NCBI GenBank assembly: GCA_029239415.1
Contig: JAQZAY010000037.1
Coordinates: 1-18,758, forward strand
Direction of reading: 5' to 3'
DNA: 18,758 nt
Source: Pseudomonas sp.
GTDB lineage: Bacteria; Pseudomonadota; Gammaproteobacteria; Pseudomonadales; Pseudomonadaceae
Position 1 is the stretch's first letter. The number at the start of each line of letters is the position of its first letter. Positions 406 through 13,668 of the stretch are shown here, one piece after another. The notes beneath the pieces are model-generated. The model ran no database searches and was not told where the DNA came from. It worked only from the letters and a program-made list of their open reading frames with translations. The translations under genes and the position numbers were made by a program.

Positions 406-1707
406 ATGTCATCCTCGTCCGCCCCTGCCGCGGCCTCTGGGCGCTCTCGCGCCGCAGCGGTGTTCCGAGTCACCTCGGGCAACTTCCTCGAACAATTCGA
501 CTTCTTCCTGTTCGGCTTCTACGCCACGCAGATCGCCTCGGCCTTCTTCCCCGCATCCAGCGAGTTCGCCTCGCTGATGATGACCTTCGCGGTGTTCGGC
601 GCCGGCTTCCTGATGCGTCCGCTCGGTGCCATCGTCCTGGGCGCCTACATCGACGATGTCGGGCGCCGCAAAGGGTTGATCGTCACCCTGTCGATCATGG
701 CCAGCGGCACCTTGCTCATCGTGCTGGTGCCCGGCTATGCGAGCATCGGCCTGTGGGCGCCTGCGCTCGTGTTGCTGGGACGACTGCTGCAAGGGTTCTC
801 CGCCGGTGCGGAGCTGGGCGGCGTGTCCGTCTACCTGGCCGAAATGGCCACGCCGGGGCGCAAGGGGTTCTACACCAGCTGGCAGTCCGGTAGCCAACAG
901 GTGGCGATCATCGTCGCGGCCGCGCTGGGGTACGCCTTGAACCAGGGAATGGCCCCTGCGCAGGTCGCCGAATGGGGCTGGCGCATTCCGTTCGCCGTGG
1001 GTTGCATGATCATTCCCTTCATCTTCCTGCTGCGCCGCAATCTGCAGGAAACCGAGGAATTCGCCCAGCGTGCCCATCGCCCGAGCATGCGTGAAGTGGT
1101 CGGCACCCTGGCGCAGAACTGGCGCACGGTGCTGGCCGGCATGCTCATGGTGGCCATGACCACCAGCGCCTTCTACCTGATCACCGTGTACGCACCGACC
1201 TTCGGCAAGACCGTGCTCAACCTCAGCACCACCGACGCCTTGCTGGTGACATTGCTGGTCGGGGTGTCCAACTTCATCTGGTTGCCGATCGGCGGCATGC
1301 TGAGCGACCGCTTCGGCCGCAAGCCCATGCTGGTAGCCATGACGGTGCTGACCATTTTCACGGCGTATCCCGCGCTGTCGTTCCTGGCCCAGGCGCCGAG
1401 CTTCGGCCACATGCTCGAAGTGCTGCTGTGGTTCTCGTGCCTGTATGCGCTCTACAACGGCGCGATGATTCCGGCGCTGACCGAAATCATGCCGGTCGAA
1501 GTCAGGGTCGCCGGGTTCTCCCTTGCCTACAGCCTGGCCACCGCGCTGTTCGGCGGCTTCACCCCGGCCATGTCCACCTGGCTGATCCACACCACTGGCG
1601 ACAAGGCCGCGCCTGCCTACTGGGTGACGTTCGCAGCGGTCTGCGCCTTGTGCGCCACCTTGGTCCTGTACCGCCGTCTGGCCCTGCGTCCGCAGTTGGC
1701 CGTGTAA
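406..1707 (+). CDS. citA: MFS citrate/tricarballylate-type proton symporter (MHS family)
   Basis: This 433-residue inner-membrane transporter belongs to the metabolite:H+ symporter branch of the major facilitator superfamily. It closely resembles the CitA/TcuC proteins that import citrate or tricarballylate with protons. Visible signatures are [20 protein letters not shown] near the N-terminus, motif A (G79[11 protein letters not shown]), the MHS signature [15 protein letters not shown] (about 125-139), GWRIPF (191-196), and a second motif-A-like loop [12 protein letters not shown] in the C-terminal half. About twelve hydrophobic segments span the full length, so it looks intact. ATG 406 is preceded by GGAGAAT at 394-400. 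A secreted solute-binding protein follows 62 bases later on the same strand and a LysR gene faces the pair. The exact substrate (citrate, tricarballylate, aconitate or another tricarboxylate) cannot be read from sequence. Confidence 0.87.
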
Positions 1708-1721
1708 TCGGCGATTTCATC

Positions 1722-1741
1722 CCCGGCGCGTCTGCGCCGGG
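1722..1741 (+). terminator. Strong GC hairpin between the symporter and binding-protein genes
   Basis: CCCGGCGC (1722-1729) and GCGCCGGG (1734-1741) form a perfect 8-base stem with the tetraloop GTCT, followed by CCTTTCGG. The stem is strong enough for an intrinsic terminator, but the T-tract is poor. It starts 15 bases after the symporter stop and ends 28 bases before the next ATG. It may be a partial terminator or an mRNA-stabilising hairpin that sets the expression ratio of the two genes. Confidence 0.45.
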
Positions 1742-1769
1742 CCTTTCGGCATCGAGCGAGTCAAGCCCC

Positions 1770-2549
1770 ATGAAACCGTTCCTCCTGTCCAGCAAGAGCC
1801 TGGCATTCGCCAGCCTGGTCGCCCTGAGCGCCACGGCGCATGCCGAGCACCTGACCGTGATGACCTCCGGCGGCTTCACTGCCGCCTACAAGGCGTTGAG
1901 CCCTGGCTACGCGGCCAAGAGCGGCGATACCTTGACGACGGTGTTGGGCCCTTCGATGGGCAAGACGCCTGAAGCGATCCCCAATCGCCTGGCGCGCGGC
2001 GAGCACGCGGACGTGGTGATCATGGTCGGCTATGCGCTCGACGAACTGATCAAGCAAGGCAAGGTCGACCCTGCCTCGCGGGTCGAGCTGGCCGATTCGC
2101 GCATCGGCATGGTGGTCAAGGCCGGCGCGCCGAAGCCTGCGATCGGTACCGATGCCGAACTTACGTCGGCGCTGCTGAAGGCCAAGTCGGTGGCGTATTC
2201 CGACAGCGCCAGTGGTGTGTACATCCAGGATAAATTGTTCAAGACGTTGGGTATCGAGCCGTCGATGCGTGGCAAGAGCACGATGGTCGAGAAGACACCG
2301 GTGGCTTCCCGCGTGGCCCAAGGCGACTACGAACTGGGCTTTCAGCAGGTGGCCGAGCTGCTGCCGGTGCCGGGCGTGACGTTCGCCGGCAAGATTCCCG
2401 AGAGCGTACAGTCGGTCACGCGATTCGCCGCCGGTATCCCGGTGAATGCCGAGCATCCGACGCAGGCCAAGGCCTTGCTGCGCTATCTGGCCTCGCCCGA
2501 GGTCCAAAATGCCGTGCGCGCCACCGGACTGGATTCAGTCGCTCGCTGA
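1770..2549 (+). CDS. Periplasmic ModA-like solute-binding protein, no ABC partner
   Basis: This 259-residue protein has a clear Sec signal peptide: a lysine-containing start, the hydrophobic stretch LAFASLVALSATAHA and a likely cut after residue 25 (AHA|EHLTV). The mature part opens with LTVMTSGGFTAAY and contains LARGEHADVVIMVG and VAYSDSASGVY, the pattern of type II periplasmic binding proteins of the molybdate-binding (ModA-like) fold. No modB/modC-type genes are nearby. Its only transport neighbour is the MFS symporter directly upstream, with which it probably forms a unit. The ligand is therefore more likely an organic acid than molybdate, but that is inference. The open frame extends further upstream inside the symporter gene; I chose ATG 1770 because it gives the signal peptide. 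The ribosome-binding site is weak. The last 15 bases overlap the 3' end of the convergent LysR gene. Confidence 0.8.
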   Translation: MKPFLLSSKSLAFASLVALSATAHAEHLTVMTSGGFTAAYKALSPGYAAKSGDTLTTVLGPSMGKTPEAIPNRLARGEHADVVIMVGYALDELIKQGKVDPASRVELADSRIGMVVKAGAPKPAIGTDAELTSALLKAKSVAYSDSASGVYIQDKLFKTLGIEPSMRGKSTMVEKTPVASRVAQGDYELGFQQVAELLPVPGVTFAGKIPESVQSVTRFAAGIPVNAEHPTQAKALLRYLASPEVQNAVRATGLDSVAR

Positions 2550-3443
2550 GTGCCGCCGCATGTCCCGGATGCGCTCGATCAGGTCGAGTGCAGCCGGGGT
2601 CAGCGTACGGCCGCGACGCTGGATCAGACCAACGTTCCTGAACACCTCAGGCTCGATCAACGGGATGCTTTTCAACAACGGATGCTCGCCGACGGGCATC
2701 GCGATGGACGGTACCGGGGCAATGCCCAGGCCTGCTTCCACCAGGCCGAGCATGGTGGTGACGTGGCGAGTGAGGCAGATACTGGGCCGCGCGGGTTGCA
2801 CGTTCACCAACGCCTGGTCCATCAAGAGCCGGTTGCCCGACGTTTCGTCCAGCCCGATGTGCGCATGGGTGAACATTTCCGCCCAGCTGACCTGCTCCCG
2901 GTCGGCCAGCACGTGATCCTTGCGACAGGCGATCACGTAACGTTCCTGCAACAGCAGCTCGAAATCCACCTCAGGCGCCAGGTTGCCGCTGAAGCTGACC
3001 CCGAAATCGGCTTCGCCGCACGCCACGGCCGTGTTCACGTCATTGGCGCTGGCATCCAGGAGCTTCACCACGATGTTCGGGTACGCCTGATGGAAGGCAC
3101 TGACCACGGTCGGCATGAAGTAATAGGCCGTCGAGGGGACGCAGGCGATGGTGACGCTGCCGATGCGCGACGAGCGTTTGTTGCCGATCGTCATCAGCGC
3201 CAGGTCCACCTCGTCCAGCACGCGCTCGGCCTGGGGCAGGAACGCCCGGCCGACCGTGGTCAGGCTGACCCGGCGCGTGGTGCGCTCGAAGAGCTTCACG
3301 TTCAGCGCGGTCTCGAGCTTCTCGATGCGTCGGCTGAGCGCAGGCTGGGTGATGCGGATGGCTTCGGCAGCCTTGCGAAAGCTGCCGTTCTCGACGACAG
3401 CGCGAAAGGCCTGCAGATCGTTGAGGTCGAAATTCAAGGACAT
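2535..3443 (-). CDS. LysR-family transcriptional regulator
   Basis: This is a 302-residue regulator of standard LysR length. Residues about 6-65 hold the winged helix-turn-helix (LQAFRAVVENGSFRKAAEAIRITQPALSRRIEKLE, then KLFERTTRRVSLTTVG). The rest is the effector-binding domain (from about SVTIACVPSTAYYFMP to the end) that senses a small co-inducer. It starts at ATG 3443 without an obvious Shine-Dalgarno. Its stop lies inside the last codons of the solute-binding gene, so the two genes overlap tail to tail by 15 bases. Position and partner genes suggest that it controls the symporter/binding-protein pair in response to the imported acid, by way of the inverted repeat at 286-310. LysR genes usually lie divergent from their targets; here the arrangement is convergent. 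Family assignment is secure; target and ligand are inferred. Confidence 0.93.
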   Translation of the reverse strand: MSLNFDLNDLQAFRAVVENGSFRKAAEAIRITQPALSRRIEKLETALNVKLFERTTRRVSLTTVGRAFLPQAERVLDEVDLALMTIGNKRSSRIGSVTIACVPSTAYYFMPTVVSAFHQAYPNIVVKLLDASANDVNTAVACGEADFGVSFSGNLAPEVDFELLLQERYVIACRKDHVLADREQVSWAEMFTHAHIGLDETSGNRLLMDQALVNVQPARPSICLTRHVTTMLGLVEAGLGIAPVPSIAMPVGEHPLLKSIPLIEPEVFRNVGLIQRRGRTLTPAALDLIERIRDMRRHSASD

Positions 3444-3469
3444 CGGGGCGCCGCAGTGAGGTCGGAGAA

Positions 3470-3485
3470 CGAAGGCCCGCCTTCG
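3470..3485. repeat. 16-base palindrome between the kinase and LysR genes
   Basis: CGAAGGC (3470-3476), CC, GCCTTCG (3479-3485) is a perfect palindrome in the 75-base gap. Read on the minus strand it is a 7-base stem followed by TTCTCC, so it may act as a weak terminator for the kinase transcript. It would also lie in the LysR mRNA leader if the promoter at 3509-3538 is real. No proper T-tract is present. Confidence 0.35.
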
Positions 3486-3508
3486 CAGGCGAGTCCTCGG
3501 AGTGCGCC

Positions 3509-3538
3509 ACTATACGCGCTAAGCGTTGCCGATCCCAA
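3509..3538 (-). promoter_or_regulatory. Candidate sigma-70 promoter of the LysR gene
   Basis: On the minus strand TTGGGA (3538-3533) and TATAGT (3514-3509) are separated by 18 bases. The -35 matches the consensus at four of six positions and the -10 at five of six. The -35 and most of the spacer lie within the last codons of the kinase gene. Transcription would start near 3502, about 60 bases before the LysR ATG. Confidence 0.45.
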
Positions 3539-6500
3539 GCGACCCGTCGACCGAGGCATGCGAACCATGCGCGGTGTGGGAGGGCGTCGGCCCGACGTGC
3601 GCCTGGAGAATGCCTTGCAAGGCACGCTCGACCCGGCGCATGTGCCGGGCCAGGGCCTGGCGGCGGCGTCTGAGTTGCAACGAAGTCGCCGTCAGTGCGT
3701 CACGCTGCACCGCTTCGCACGCCGCACACAAGGCGTCGGCACCCAGCAGGCGTGCCGGTCCGAGGACCTTGTGTGCCACCTCGGACAGCGCCTCGCGCTG
3801 CGTGTCGGGGTCGACGGCCATCAGCCCGAGGAGGTCCTGATGCAGGCAGTGTCGCAAGGTTTCCAGCAGGCGCTGACGCTCGTGGGGATCGTTGCCGTCG
3901 ATCGCGTCCAGCCCCGTCAGGTCGATTCGGGCGACCAGCGCAGGTGCTGGCAAAGGAGCGATGTGGGCCAAACGCCGACCCAGCGCCTGTAGATCGATGG
4001 GTTTGAACAGGCAGTCGTCCATGCCGGCTTCCAGGCACTGTTGAAGAATCTCCGGTTGGGCGTTGGCCGTGTAGCCAAGAAGCGTGCAACGGGGACGTCC
4101 TGTGCGGGCTTCCTCTTCACGGATGCGCCGAGCCAGCTGATAGCCATTCATGACCGGCATGTTGCAATCCACCACCAGCACATCGAAGAGGTTCTTGCGC
4201 CAGAGTGCGAGGCCTTCTTCCCCATGGCTCGCGCTTCGATGAGGGACGCCGAGGAAGGCCAGTTGCTGACCCAGCAGCAGGACATTGGCCGGATGATCGT
4301 CCACCACCAGCACGCGCAAGCGTGCATCCGGTGTTTCGATGCGAACGACCGGATCGGGCGCGGAGGCCGGCTCGACGGCCTGCAGTGGCACTGACAGACG
4401 GACCCGTGTCCCGACCCCGAGCAGGCTGTCCATGGTCAGGCTGGCACCCATCAGCTGGCAGATGGCCTGGCTGATCGCAAGGCCCAAGCCCGTCCCGGCA
4501 CGGGCGCGATCGCTGTCCGGATCGACTTGCGCGAAGGCGGTGAACAGGCGTTTGAGGTCTTCTTCGTGAATGCCGATGCCGCTGTCGCGCACTTCCAGCT
4601 CCAAATGCGTGGCCGCGGGATCGTCGGCCGCCTGCCGGCGCATGCTGATGCGCACCTGGCCATGATCGGTGAACTTGATGGCGTTGCCGATCAGGTTGCA
4701 CAGGACCTGCTTGAAACGCATCGGGTCGAGCAGGGCATGACAACGTGCGTCGGCCGCGATGTCCACTTCCAGCGCCAGCCCCTTCTGCCGTGCCAGCCCG
4801 TCGAACATGCTGGCCACGGCTTCCACCAGTTCGGCCACGGCAACCGGTTCCGGGCTCAAGCTCAGGTGGCCGGATTCGATCCGGACGAAATCGAGGATGT
4901 CGCCAATGAGCTTGAGCAGGTCCCTGGCGGAGCGGTGCGCCACGGCGATCGCTTCACGCTCCAGGCGGCCCTGATCGGCATGCTTGAGCGCCAGTTCGAG
5001 CATGCCGAGCACGGCGTTCATCGGGGTGCGGATCTCGTGGCTCATGGTCGCCAGGAACGTGCTCTTGGCCCGGTTGGCCTGGTCGGCACGCTGCTTGGCC
5101 AGACTCAGGTCCTGCACCAGCTTGCGACGATCGCTGATGTCGATCCAGCCGCAGATGATGCCTTGAACCTGCCCGAGCGAATCGCGATAGGGCAGGATCC
5201 AGTGGTAGATGGTCAGCTCGCGATCCTTCAGGCGCAGGGGACGATCGGTGATCAGGGGCTTGGCCTGCTCCAGGACCTTCAGGTAGTCGGCCTGGATCTG
5301 ACGCGTGTAGGCACAGTTGCTCATCACGCTGTCCTGCAGGCGCTTGCCGATGACCTGCTCGGCGCTCGCCTGGACGGTATCCAGGTAACTCTGGTTGCAG
5401 GTCTGCATGCGTCCTTCGCGGTCACGCACGTACATCGGGTGCGGGGTGCCGTCGAGCAGCGCGCGCATGAACGCCACCTGGTCGTTCAGGGCCCGCTCGG
5501 CCCGCTCGCGCTGGGCGATCTGGCGTCGCAGCCGGGTGTTCCAGATCAAAGACAGCACCAGCAGTAGCAGCGTACCGACGACGATCTGCAGGACGATGCG
5601 CTGGTAGGCCTGCCACTGCGTGTCGTCATGGTGGCTGTAGCCGCGCCAGCGACTGTTGATGACGCCCAGCTCCTCGGGCGAGATGCTCAGCAAGGCCTTG
5701 TCGAGAATCTGGGCCAGCTCCTTGCAGCGCAGGGGCGTCGCCATCGAGAACACCGCTGGCGCTTCGCTGACCGTGGTGCGCATGAGCAGCTCCGCATCGT
5801 TGGCCAGGGCATGATTGGCGTCGACCAGGGACGCGACGACGGCATCGACCTGGCCGTCCTTGAGCAGCGCGATCGCCTTGGGAGTACCGTCGGTGATGCT
5901 CTGCAGGATGTGCGGGTATCGTTGGGCCAGCTTTTCGGCCAGCGGCGTATCGCGCGGGATGGCCAGTCTGCGATGGGCCAGGTCGTCCAGCGAAGCCGGC
6001 TGTCGCTCGCCCTGCTTGCTGATCAGCACGTAGGAGGTTTCCAGGTACGGACGGCTGGCGCTCAACTGGTCGGCATGCCGCTCGGGATGGGCGATGGCGG
6101 CGATCACGTTGGCCTTGCCCTCCTTGAGCAGGCGCACCATGTCCTCGGTGCCGGTGGCCCGTATGACCTCGAAGCGCAGCCCGGTACGCAGGCGGATCAG
6201 CTCCAGGAGATCGGCGGCAATGCCACGGAAATTGTCGTGCTTGTCGAAGAACGTCAGCGGCGCGGCGGTTTCGTCGATTGCCACGCGCATGACCGGGTGT
6301 TCGTGCAGCCAGCGCTCCTCGCGGGGCGTGAGCTGCAGCTTGCGATCGGTCATCAGGGTGTCGCTGCCCGTGCTCCAGCGCTCGAAGATGTCCTTGCGCG
6401 TCAGCGCAGGCAGGCCGGAGAGGACGGCGTTGACCAGCGTCAGCAGTACCGTGTCGTCGCGTCGCAGTGCGAAACCGAAGCCGACCGCTTCATGCTTGCC

Positions 6501-12103: not shown

Positions 12104-12340
12104 ATGCTGCCTGAATGCCAACTGTTCGGCACCCTGGGATGCCATCTGTGCGAGCTGGCCGAGGCCTTGCTCATGCCTTGGGTCGATCACGGTCTGCTGG
12201 TCGAGCTGGTCGACATCAGCGAGCACCCGGAGTCCTTCGAACGCTATGCCTGGCGCTTGCCCGTCCTGCGCCGCTGCGACACGGGCGCCGAACTCGACTG
12301 GCCCTTCGACGAGGCGCAGATCGCTGGCTTCTTGCGTTGA
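12104..12340 (+). CDS. Glutaredoxin-like (DUF836) small thiol protein
   Basis: This 78-residue cytoplasmic protein has the compact thioredoxin fold of the glutaredoxin/DUF836 family. It opens with CQLFGTLGCHLCELAEALL, with the CxxC pair C13/C16, a cis-proline candidate P53 in RLPVLRR, and a C-terminal DWPFDEAQIAGFL typical of the family. The active-site dipeptide HL differs from the PY of classical glutaredoxins, so the redox partner may differ. ATG 12104 follows GGGAGA. It lies 82 bases after amt on the same strand; the link to ammonium transport is not obvious. Its partner and substrate are unknown. Confidence 0.82.
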   Translation: MLPECQLFGTLGCHLCELAEALLMPWVDHGLLVELVDISEHPESFERYAWRLPVLRRCDTGAELDWPFDEAQIAGFLR

Positions 12341-12357: not shown

Positions 12358-12386
12358 TTGACGGCATCGGGCAGGCTCTTTATCCT
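12358..12386 (+). promoter_or_regulatory. Sigma-70 promoter of the LexA-controlled gene
   Basis: TTGACG (12358-12363), a 17-base spacer and TATCCT (12381-12386) form a well-spaced promoter: five of six matches in the -35 and four of six in the -10. Transcription should begin near 12393, about 27 bases before the ATG at 12420. The start point falls inside the LexA box. Confidence 0.72.
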
Positions 12387-12400
12387 GTATGCCTATACAG
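12385..12400. promoter_or_regulatory. LexA-binding site (SOS box)
   Basis: CTGTATGCCTATACAG has the invariant CTG-N10-CAG ends and the wider CTGTAT/ATACAG arms of the gamma-proteobacterial LexA consensus (CTGTATATATATACAG); only the central four bases differ. It overlaps the -10 and the predicted start point of the promoter at 12358-12386, the classic position for steric repression. Confidence 0.87.
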
Positions 12401-12419
12401 TAAGGGTGGTAGAGAACTG

Positions 12420-12749
12420 ATGGTCAATGTCGAGCAATTGAAGGACAGCGTCAATCGCATGGAGGTGAGCAGCGTCCTCGAGGCGGCGCTGGAGCTGCGG
12501 CTCGACGGCCTGGTGGTCGGTGAGCGCACGCCGTTCGGCAAGGTGCACTTCAACACCTGCTTCGCCGAGGTCGAAGCGCTGTTCCAGCGCGCCGGGTATC
12601 ACCGTCCACTCGATGTGGTGGGTTACGAAGGCCAGGTCTATGCCCTGTATGACCCCAGTCGCTGGGAGGCGGTGCAGGTGCTGCGCTGGCTCAAGGAGCG
12701 CAGCGAGACGCCGTCTGCCGCTGGTGGCCAGGTCGCGCTTGGCGGATAA
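12420..12749 (+). CDS. Uncharacterised protein under predicted LexA (SOS) control
   Basis: I do not recognise this 109-residue protein. It has no signal peptide and no membrane segment, so it should be cytoplasmic. The N-terminal third is helix-prone and acidic (VEQLKDSVNRMEVSSVLEAALELRLDGLVVG). A mixed middle follows, with conserved-looking aromatic and glycine positions (TPFGKVHFNTCFAEVEALFQRAGYHRPLDVVGYEGQVYALYDPSRW), then an amphipathic helix (EAVQVLRWLKERSE) and a loose tail. ATG 12420 lies 19 bases after the LexA box; AGAGA just upstream is a modest ribosome-binding site. The promoter and SOS box predict strong induction by DNA damage. A small SOS protein could modulate a polymerase, RecA, cell division or nucleotide pools, but nothing in the sequence decides between these. 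The stop codon sits in an imperfect stem (12741-12766). Confidence 0.85.
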   Translation: MVNVEQLKDSVNRMEVSSVLEAALELRLDGLVVGERTPFGKVHFNTCFAEVEALFQRAGYHRPLDVVGYEGQVYALYDPSRWEAVQVLRWLKERSETPSAAGGQVALGG

Positions 12750-12780
12750 TGCCGCGTCTTATCGCCACCGAGTCGTTCCC

Positions 12781-13668
12781 ATGTCCGCGCCGTTCGATCC
12801 CGCCCTGCAGCAAGCCAGCACGGTCTGCCTTCCGCCTGGGGCTTGGGACACCGTGCTCGATTGCTTGAGCGAGCATTTCAAGGCGATAGGACGCCAAGGG
12901 TGGCTCGACCGTTTTCAGCGAGGGCGCGTGCTCGATGCCACAGGCCAGCCGGTGCCGGCGGATCTGCCCTACCGACGTGGTCTGCGCTTGCATTATTTTC
13001 GCGAAGTGCCGAACGAGCGCCCGATTCCGGTGCAGGAGATCGTCTTGCATATGGACGATCACTTGGTGGTGGTCGACAAGCCGCATTTCCTGCCGGTGAC
13101 GCCCACGGGTGAGTACGTCGAGCAGACCTTGCTGCGGCGCCTGATCCGCCGGCTGGACAACCCGCACCTGGTCCCCTTGCACCGCATCGATCGACACACG
13201 GCCGGGTTGGTGCTGTTTTCCAGCAACCCCCAGAGCCGCAGCGCTTACCAGCGGCTGTTTCCCGAGCGGCGCATCGACAAGCAGTACCAGGCCATCGCTC
13301 CGGCCTTGCCTGACTTGCCGGTGCCCTACGTTCACACGAGTCGTCTGGCCCATGGAGAACCGTTCTTCCGCATGCAGGAAGTCCCCGGCGTGCCGAACAG
13401 CGAGACCCAGGTCCGGGTGCTGGAAAAACGGGGTGAGTGGTGGCGCTATGGCCTGTCGCCGGTAACGGGCAAGACCCACCAGTTGCGGGTGCACATGGCC
13501 GCGCTGGGGGCTGCGATTCAATACGACCCGTTCTATCCGAACCTGGTCGCGCAGGCCGATGACTACGGCAGGCCGCTCAAGCTACTGGCCCAGCGGTTGA
13601 GCTTCACGGATCCGTTGAACGGGGAAGGGCGGGTGTTCGACAGCACCTTGACCTTGGACTGGGCCTGA
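12781..13668 (+). CDS. RluA-family RNA pseudouridine synthase
   Basis: This 295-residue enzyme isomerises uridine to pseudouridine in RNA. The catalytic motif is LHRIDRHTAGLVLF, with aspartate 137. The N-terminal region (about 21-75, AWDTVLDCLSEHFKAIGRQGWLDRFQRGRVLDATGQPV) looks like an S4-type RNA-binding module. VVVDKPHFLPVTP (about 96-108) and the C-terminal GKTHQLRVHMAALGAAI complete the RluA-family pattern. The specific target (rRNA or tRNA site) is not clear; it is not an obvious RluA, RluC or RluD copy. ATG 12781 is 31 bases after the SOS gene stop and has no strong Shine-Dalgarno. An imperfect stem spans 12741-12766, between the two genes. It may be cotranscribed with the LexA-controlled gene, in which case it would also respond to DNA damage. 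Confidence 0.9.
   Translation: MSAPFDPALQQASTVCLPPGAWDTVLDCLSEHFKAIGRQGWLDRFQRGRVLDATGQPVPADLPYRRGLRLHYFREVPNERPIPVQEIVLHMDDHLVVVDKPHFLPVTPTGEYVEQTLLRRLIRRLDNPHLVPLHRIDRHTAGLVLFSSNPQSRSAYQRLFPERRIDKQYQAIAPALPDLPVPYVHTSRLAHGEPFFRMQEVPGVPNSETQVRVLEKRGEWWRYGLSPVTGKTHQLRVHMAALGAAIQYDPFYPNLVAQADDYGRPLKLLAQRLSFTDPLNGEGRVFDSTLTLDWA

Follow-up and report, generated by a model that had tools for sequence, protein, structure and literature searches.

The small gene examined here was confirmed to be a strongly conserved, family-restricted SOS gene, whose membership in the SOS response had already been published for P. aeruginosa. It lies in a stretch of 18,758 nucleotides from Pseudomonas sp. (assembly GCA_029239415.1, contig JAQZAY010000037.1), called the window below, and encodes an acidic protein of 109 amino acids (pI 5.1, charge about -4). 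What the present analysis adds is that the LexA box is conserved in five genera and is lost together with the gene, that the gene can be identified with PA0922, that the neighbouring rluA-like gene is probably not the target of the box, and that one form of the locus contains umuDC.

To judge from sequence and gene order, the window gene is the orthologue of P. aeruginosa PA0922. The window protein was compared with P. aeruginosa WP_003086015.1, and 70 of 96 residues were identical (residues 1-96 of 109). On a P. aeruginosa megaplasmid the order was dinB, tRNA-Met, the box CTGTATATTCGTACAG, the gene for WP_003086015.1, another small gene and mprF, with CTGTATATTCGTACAG standing 52 bp before the start of the WP_003086015.1 gene. 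The equation with PA0922 rests on this dinB gene order, as the available part of PMC8944484, citing Cirz et al. 2006, describes PA0922 as divergent from dinB, preceded by a LexA box and a member of the LexA regulon. Therefore, the window gene is not new as an SOS gene. The first-pass annotation had called it undescribed, which does not hold for its SOS membership but holds for its function, since no paper naming a function was found in the literature searched. In the parts available of two further sources, PA0922 was up 3.7-fold in hydrogen peroxide, beside lexA at 4.0-fold (PMC1250226), and is listed with 8.9 among the gene-chip values for a rubB mutant (PMC12431658). The two orthologues differ in their surroundings: PA0922 is divergent from dinB with tRNA-Met between, whereas the window gene lies between glutaredoxin-like and rluA genes, and the sequence and spacing of the box are also unlike. 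The megaplasmid record (NZ_CP131792.1, 668047-676334, L247) is an 847-kb conjugative plasmid with a chromosome-like stretch that carries dinB, the PA0922-type gene and mprF.

The features read in the window are listed in Table 1. The TTGACG, N17, TATCCT promoter, the overlapping LexA box and the 109-residue open reading frame that the first-pass annotation had described were all present as it had placed them. The spacing between TTGACG and TATCCT was 17 bases, and TATCCT matches four of the six bases of what we take to be the -10 consensus. The LexA box CTGTATGCCTATACAG overlaps the -10 element by two bases and is followed by 19 bases and then the ATG at 12420. The start position was conserved, with GTG or TTG in place of ATG in some relatives. 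The median dN/dS of the small gene was 0.11 (2536 pairs with dS 0.1-1.5; first 92 codons), which indicates that the 109-codon frame is coding and is under strong purifying selection.

Table 1. Coordinates of the features discussed (window positions unless a locus is named)
Feature	Position	Strand	Remarks
Glutaredoxin-like (DUF836) gene, upstream	12104..12340	+	likewise placed in 79/80 named relatives
-35 element TTGACG	12358..12363	+	read directly; TTGAC kept in relatives
-10 element TATCCT	12381..12386	+	read directly; final two bases common to LexA box
LexA box CTGTATGCCTATACAG	12385..12400	+	read directly; conserved in relatives
Gene for 109-aa protein, putative PA0922 orthologue	12420..12749	+	stop codon included (12747-12749)
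GATAAT, possible own -10 of rluA-like gene	12745..12750	+	overlaps stop codon of small gene
RluA-family pseudouridine synthase gene	12781..13668	+	31 bp downstream of small gene
G127 box-umuD-umuC-PA0922-like-rluA unit	L236 (G127:C1:610500-617000), 2189-4302	one strand	

A bare match to CTGT-N8-ACAG is weak evidence, and the case for the box is comparative. CTGTATGCCTATACAG was the sole exact match in the window, and three further matches each had one mismatch. With one mismatch allowed, the four matches found compare with 6.5 expected by chance, so the looser pattern proves nothing. In G001, the nearest genome compared, which shares 100% of sampled words with the window, the exact pattern occurred 33 times versus 20 for a reversed-pattern control; thus over half of the bare exact matches may be due to chance.

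The region upstream of the gene was compared in 80 named loci, which were the best 80 from a set of at least 156 relatives and hence close to the window. Upstream of the start, 76 of the 80 had a full CTGT-N8-ACAG no more than 166 bp away and all of them had one within 560 bp, in comparison with 2 of 2478 control windows of 166 bp taken from the same loci outside the upstream zone, mostly in coding DNA; the box is therefore not a chance match. In 61 of the 80 relatives TTGAC preceded the box by 27-28 bases, and in the window by 27. By title, 79 of these loci were Pseudomonas and one was Pantoea sp. Cy-639; single proteins among the listed relatives were named Pantoea sp. or Gammaproteobacteria, and we take the records so named to be misnamed Pseudomonas. 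The named loci are partly the same records as the genomes below, for instance L077 and G074.

The box was also examined in 86 genomes of five Pseudomonadaceae genera, these being loci returned by searches or chosen as divergent and not a random draw. This set excludes further loci of genomes already counted, the weak partial match L137, and G127, G062, G072 and G074. Both arms of the box were intact in 79 genomes and one arm base was changed in 7. By the search rule, a full box lay within 260 bp in 80 of the 86 (45 of 47 in genus group g1, 24 of 24 in g3, 8 of 12 in g128, 2 of 2 in g121 and 1 of 1 in g130), and the remaining 6 had one changed arm base. The full box of G574 (L157) at -182 is probably accidental, its site at -49 having one changed arm base, and for this reason 79 full and 7 near sites were counted. 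Sites with 7 or 8 of the 8 arm bases were common: 41 of the 531 control stretches, each of 260 bp, held such a site. The 7 near sites are given weight solely for their position, where relatives carry the full box, as judged by eye. The spacing from box to start ranged from 14 to about 200 bp and the neighbouring genes varied between groups while the box stayed, which argues that selection holds the box. The first-pass annotation had named loss of the box in relatives with the gene as a refutation of its claim; no such loss was observed in the 86 genomes, where the box was retained with the gene, 79 intact and 7 near.

Absence of the gene was informative as well. Within the genus, the small gene was present in 172 of 199 genomes and 27 showed no copy; the gene is therefore dispensable. 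Twenty of these 27 were listed and retested, and a profile search of the 20 gave nothing credible (best E 0.02, partial). The rluA-like gene was retained in all 20, and no exact CTGT-N8-ACAG was found in the region of about 1.5 kb before it in 19; the exception was L252, in which CTGTATCCCTTAACAG persists 561 bp before rluA and the small gene is absent. Because gene and box were absent together in 19 of the 20 genomes and rluA was kept in every one, the box goes with the small gene. A glutaredoxin-like gene was seen in the same region of about 1.5 kb in 10 of the 20; in L249 about 60 bases, holding neither small gene nor box, separate its end from rluA. In 16 of the 20, as in the window, GATAAT was found at most 70 bp ahead of rluA.

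LexA control of the small gene is very likely, because the box was kept in 79 plus 7 of 86 genomes and was absent with the gene in 19 of 20, and the same claim in the first-pass annotation is supported, by a box kept across five genera, as strongly as sequence can support it. The presence of LexA was judged in G001, the nearest genome compared. The LexA-family model TIGR00498 matched G001 above its cut-off at two places, which leads us to expect RecA/LexA control. The exact pattern in G001 also preceded a YebG-like ORF and dinB (both named by eye) and lay 85 bp ahead of a partial match to the LexA/UmuD family. No exact CTGT-N8-ACAG was present in the 4 kb around either of the two LexA genes of G001 (L233 and L235), and the strict pattern thus misses expected targets. 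LexA on the box, which is of E. coli type and overlaps the -10 element, would block the sigma-70 promoter, and DNA damage would release the promoter through RecA-stimulated cleavage of LexA. Such repression and derepression very probably operate on the small gene in the window's species.

Other LexA-type boxes were observed in G001. Two strong ones, 233 bp apart, precede an ORF named by eye as a Sir2-like deacetylase in L009 (G001:C47:81006-83725, positions 1501 and 1734), one precedes a topoisomerase III-like ORF (by eye) in L227 (G001:C90:43400-46400, position 1485), and one precedes an ORF of 82 amino acids in L226 (G001:C73:34100-37100, position 1497).

The gene was confined to one family in the samples searched. 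It was found in 24 of 25 genomes of group g3 and in 39 of 119 genomes of the family sample, belonging to 5 of 19 genera. The order sample gave 11 matches in 293 genomes (2 of 118 genera), all in the same family, and the class sample gave one in 274, which was G001 itself; the gene was found in no other family of either sample. No match to the window protein was found among the phages searched, and the plasmid search gave one match, the P. aeruginosa megaplasmid record with its chromosome-like segment. The protein searches give the best 120 of 353, 453 and 311 matches.

The neighbourhoods of the gene were compared between groups. In the window's group the order was glutaredoxin-like gene (79 of 80 named loci), small gene and rluA (80 of 80). 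In L171, L173, L174, L175, L200 and L202, which represent groups g3, g130, g121 and part of g1, the gene and a small lipoprotein-like gene were divergently oriented (judged by eye), and in G866 the PA0922-type gene was divergent from the Pol IV gene, dinB. In G127 the LexA box CTGTACATACATACAG was followed on one strand by umuD, umuC, the PA0922-type gene and rluA, the umu genes being assigned by Pfam (Peptidase_S24, E 3.7e-10; IMS, E 2.9e-35). The Pol V operon of this locus (L236) is thus placed between the LexA box and the PA0922-like gene. In 4 of the 80 named loci (L072, L077, L088 and L090) and also in G062, G072 and G074, a set that overlaps the named loci, box and gene were separated by a umuD-like gene alone. 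Among the 199 genus genomes, 17 had a umuD-like gene (E 1e-10 or better); it was beside the PA0922-type gene in 4 of them (G127, G062, G072 and G074) and elsewhere in 12, G013 being left out of this comparison. A polymerase gene shared one operon with the small gene in a single genome, G127, where it was umuC. A conserved operon with a polymerase, as would be expected of an operon accessory of translesion polymerases, was not found across the loci examined, and the umuD and umuC queries gave no match on the PA0922-type gene itself. The G127 locus resembles umuDC and rulAB operons in having a LexA box in front, with the small gene third in the unit after umuD and umuC, but most copies of the gene have no umuDC beside them. 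On a simple reading, one lineage would have gained umuDC downstream of a LexA box that was already there, and umuC would later have disappeared from some members.

Several side observations were made at these loci. In the umuD-like genes of L072 (about 2513-2944), L236 (3831-4271) and L237 (2019-2456), the position of the catalytic Ser is Asn, Gly or Thr and the Lys position reads Arg (aligned by eye), with both positions placed from what we take to be the UmuD motifs; these genes possibly encode uncleavable UmuD proteins. In L143 and L147 (group g128), the LexA-type site and the gene are separated by a proline-rich ORF of about 46 codons, like a leader peptide. In L238 (G065:C1:887000-892500, 1661-5115), umuD has a LexA-type box, the umuC match ends after about 48 codons and other ORFs follow it, which recalls the integron-like elements inserted in rulB that are described in the available part of PMC4542609.

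The protein was then analyzed by family and structure searches. In 59 aligned members the invariant residues included H43, F44, N45, C47, E50, E52, R57 and G59, and further H61, V66, V67, G68, D78, R81 and W82; this conserved centre would suit a binding surface or an active site. The window protein matched no family in Pfam and NCBIfam, no Pfam family scored above cut-off in the 59 members, and no NCBIfam family did so in 4 relatives. PHROGs gave nothing above cut-off for the proteins scanned, and the PADLOC anti-phage defence models gave no family at E up to 1 for any of 4 proteins. The first-pass annotation had set the protein apart from DinI, SulA, YebG and RecX, and this is consistent with the searches: the models of DinI, YebG, SulA, RecX and ImuA, which Pfam and NCBIfam presumably hold, gave no match above cut-off. 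Csm6_6H matched 11 of the 59 members with a best E of 0.00083, and CotG_ExsB_Nterm matched 3 of 4 relatives with a best E of 0.0057; all these matches were below cut-off and were treated as noise. A candidate beta-clamp-binding motif, QGLLY near residue 70, fitted the pattern that we take to define such motifs and was rejected, as relatives read QGQAY and QGEIY (alignment by eye). Two AlphaFold models, built from 24 and 59 sequences, were of low confidence (pLDDT 47 and 60) and disagreed in secondary structure around residues 66-77; the sequences available were too uniform to support a prediction. Foldseek on the second model (pLDDT 60) gave a best E of 5.2, which is uninformative because the models are low in confidence and mutually different. 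The sequence search of solved structures gave a best E of 0.17.

The product, a small acidic protein with no recognised domain, would most likely bind another protein during damage tolerance, and the best candidate partners would be the Y-family polymerases Pol IV and Pol V or their regulators. A polymerase-side role is proposed because two unrelated polymerase neighbourhoods exist (dinB, and umuD-umuC in G127). Against this, each of these neighbourhoods is either rare or interrupted by a tRNA, and both might be due to common SOS control alone; a protein-binding role beside the translesion polymerases is a tentative suggestion, more likely wrong than right. The whole explanation, in which a core Pseudomonadaceae SOS gene under LexA control would supply a protein that binds a partner in damage tolerance, stands in our judgement evenly balanced between right and wrong. 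It is rather improbable that the protein is a Pseudomonadaceae-specific manager of SOS mutagenesis, binding and controlling Pol IV, and also Pol V where umuDC joined the operon; it would then take in Pseudomonadaceae a part comparable to that played by UmuD, or by DdrR in Acinetobacter, which we consider improbable to the same degree.

Two other readings of the protein were weighed. The first takes residues about 2-46 as the last two helices and wing of a winged-helix-like SOS regulator, which could bind DNA as a secondary transcription factor or, like the RPA32 C-terminal domain, a protein; both this fold and this role we regard as unlikely. Residues 2-33 aligned with the RPA32 C-terminal winged helix at 12-14 bits (four PDB chains, all from a single protein; E 0.4-0.97), a match that at E 0.4 or worse is not significant and concerns a human-type eukaryotic protein. 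Sub-threshold matches were also obtained to Pfam RPA_C (2 of 59 members, best E 0.044), HTH_36 (1 of 59, E 0.11) and, in 1 of 4 proteins, a family of phage replication initiation proteins (E 0.038), families whose folds we take to be of the winged-helix or HTH class. However, none of these matches is significant, and the unrelated Csm6_6H and CotG_ExsB_Nterm scored as well or better, while an acidic protein is poorly suited to DNA binding. The databases label the relatives 'transcriptional regulator', but this name has no visible support in the sequences, as no domain was found behind it.

The second reading makes the protein a modulator of the RecA filament or of LexA, like DinI, RecX or PsiB, or a polymerase co-regulator like DdrR, and we think it quite improbable. 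A small acidic protein encoded behind a LexA box, and in a few genomes after umuD-like genes, would fit it, and the available parts of PMC10808703 and PMC7273328 present DdrR of Acinetobacter as a small genus-specific protein that acts with a UmuD homologue. By these descriptions, DdrR, a co-regulator with UmuDAb, resembles the present protein in being small, lineage-restricted, controlled by DNA damage and linked to a UmuD homologue. However, no match to families of such modulators was obtained above cut-off, 76 of the 80 named loci have no umuD-like gene, most Pseudomonas loci offer no UmuD partner, and Acinetobacter is listed in the same sources as having no LexA.

Returning to the reading in which LexA controls the small gene itself, the alternative that the box serves the downstream rluA-like gene, with SOS-induced RNA modification and the small ORF as a passenger, gains from the 31 bp between the two genes and their adjacency in 80 of 80 named loci, but is nearly refuted by the 20 gene-lacking genomes, which all keep rluA, have no exact box before it in 19 cases and carry GATAAT before it in 16, by other genera with gene and box in different surroundings, and by the strong purifying selection on the small ORF; rluA is thus probably not the target, and the alternative can hardly be right.

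According to the available part of a 2026 review (PMC13114513), the LexA regulon of P. aeruginosa comprises only about 15 genes. The presence and absence of the small gene within one genus make it easy to test, for which P. putida offers a convenient laboratory species. The box was kept, intact or with one arm base changed, in all 86 genomes, and the gene probably matters to survival of DNA damage.
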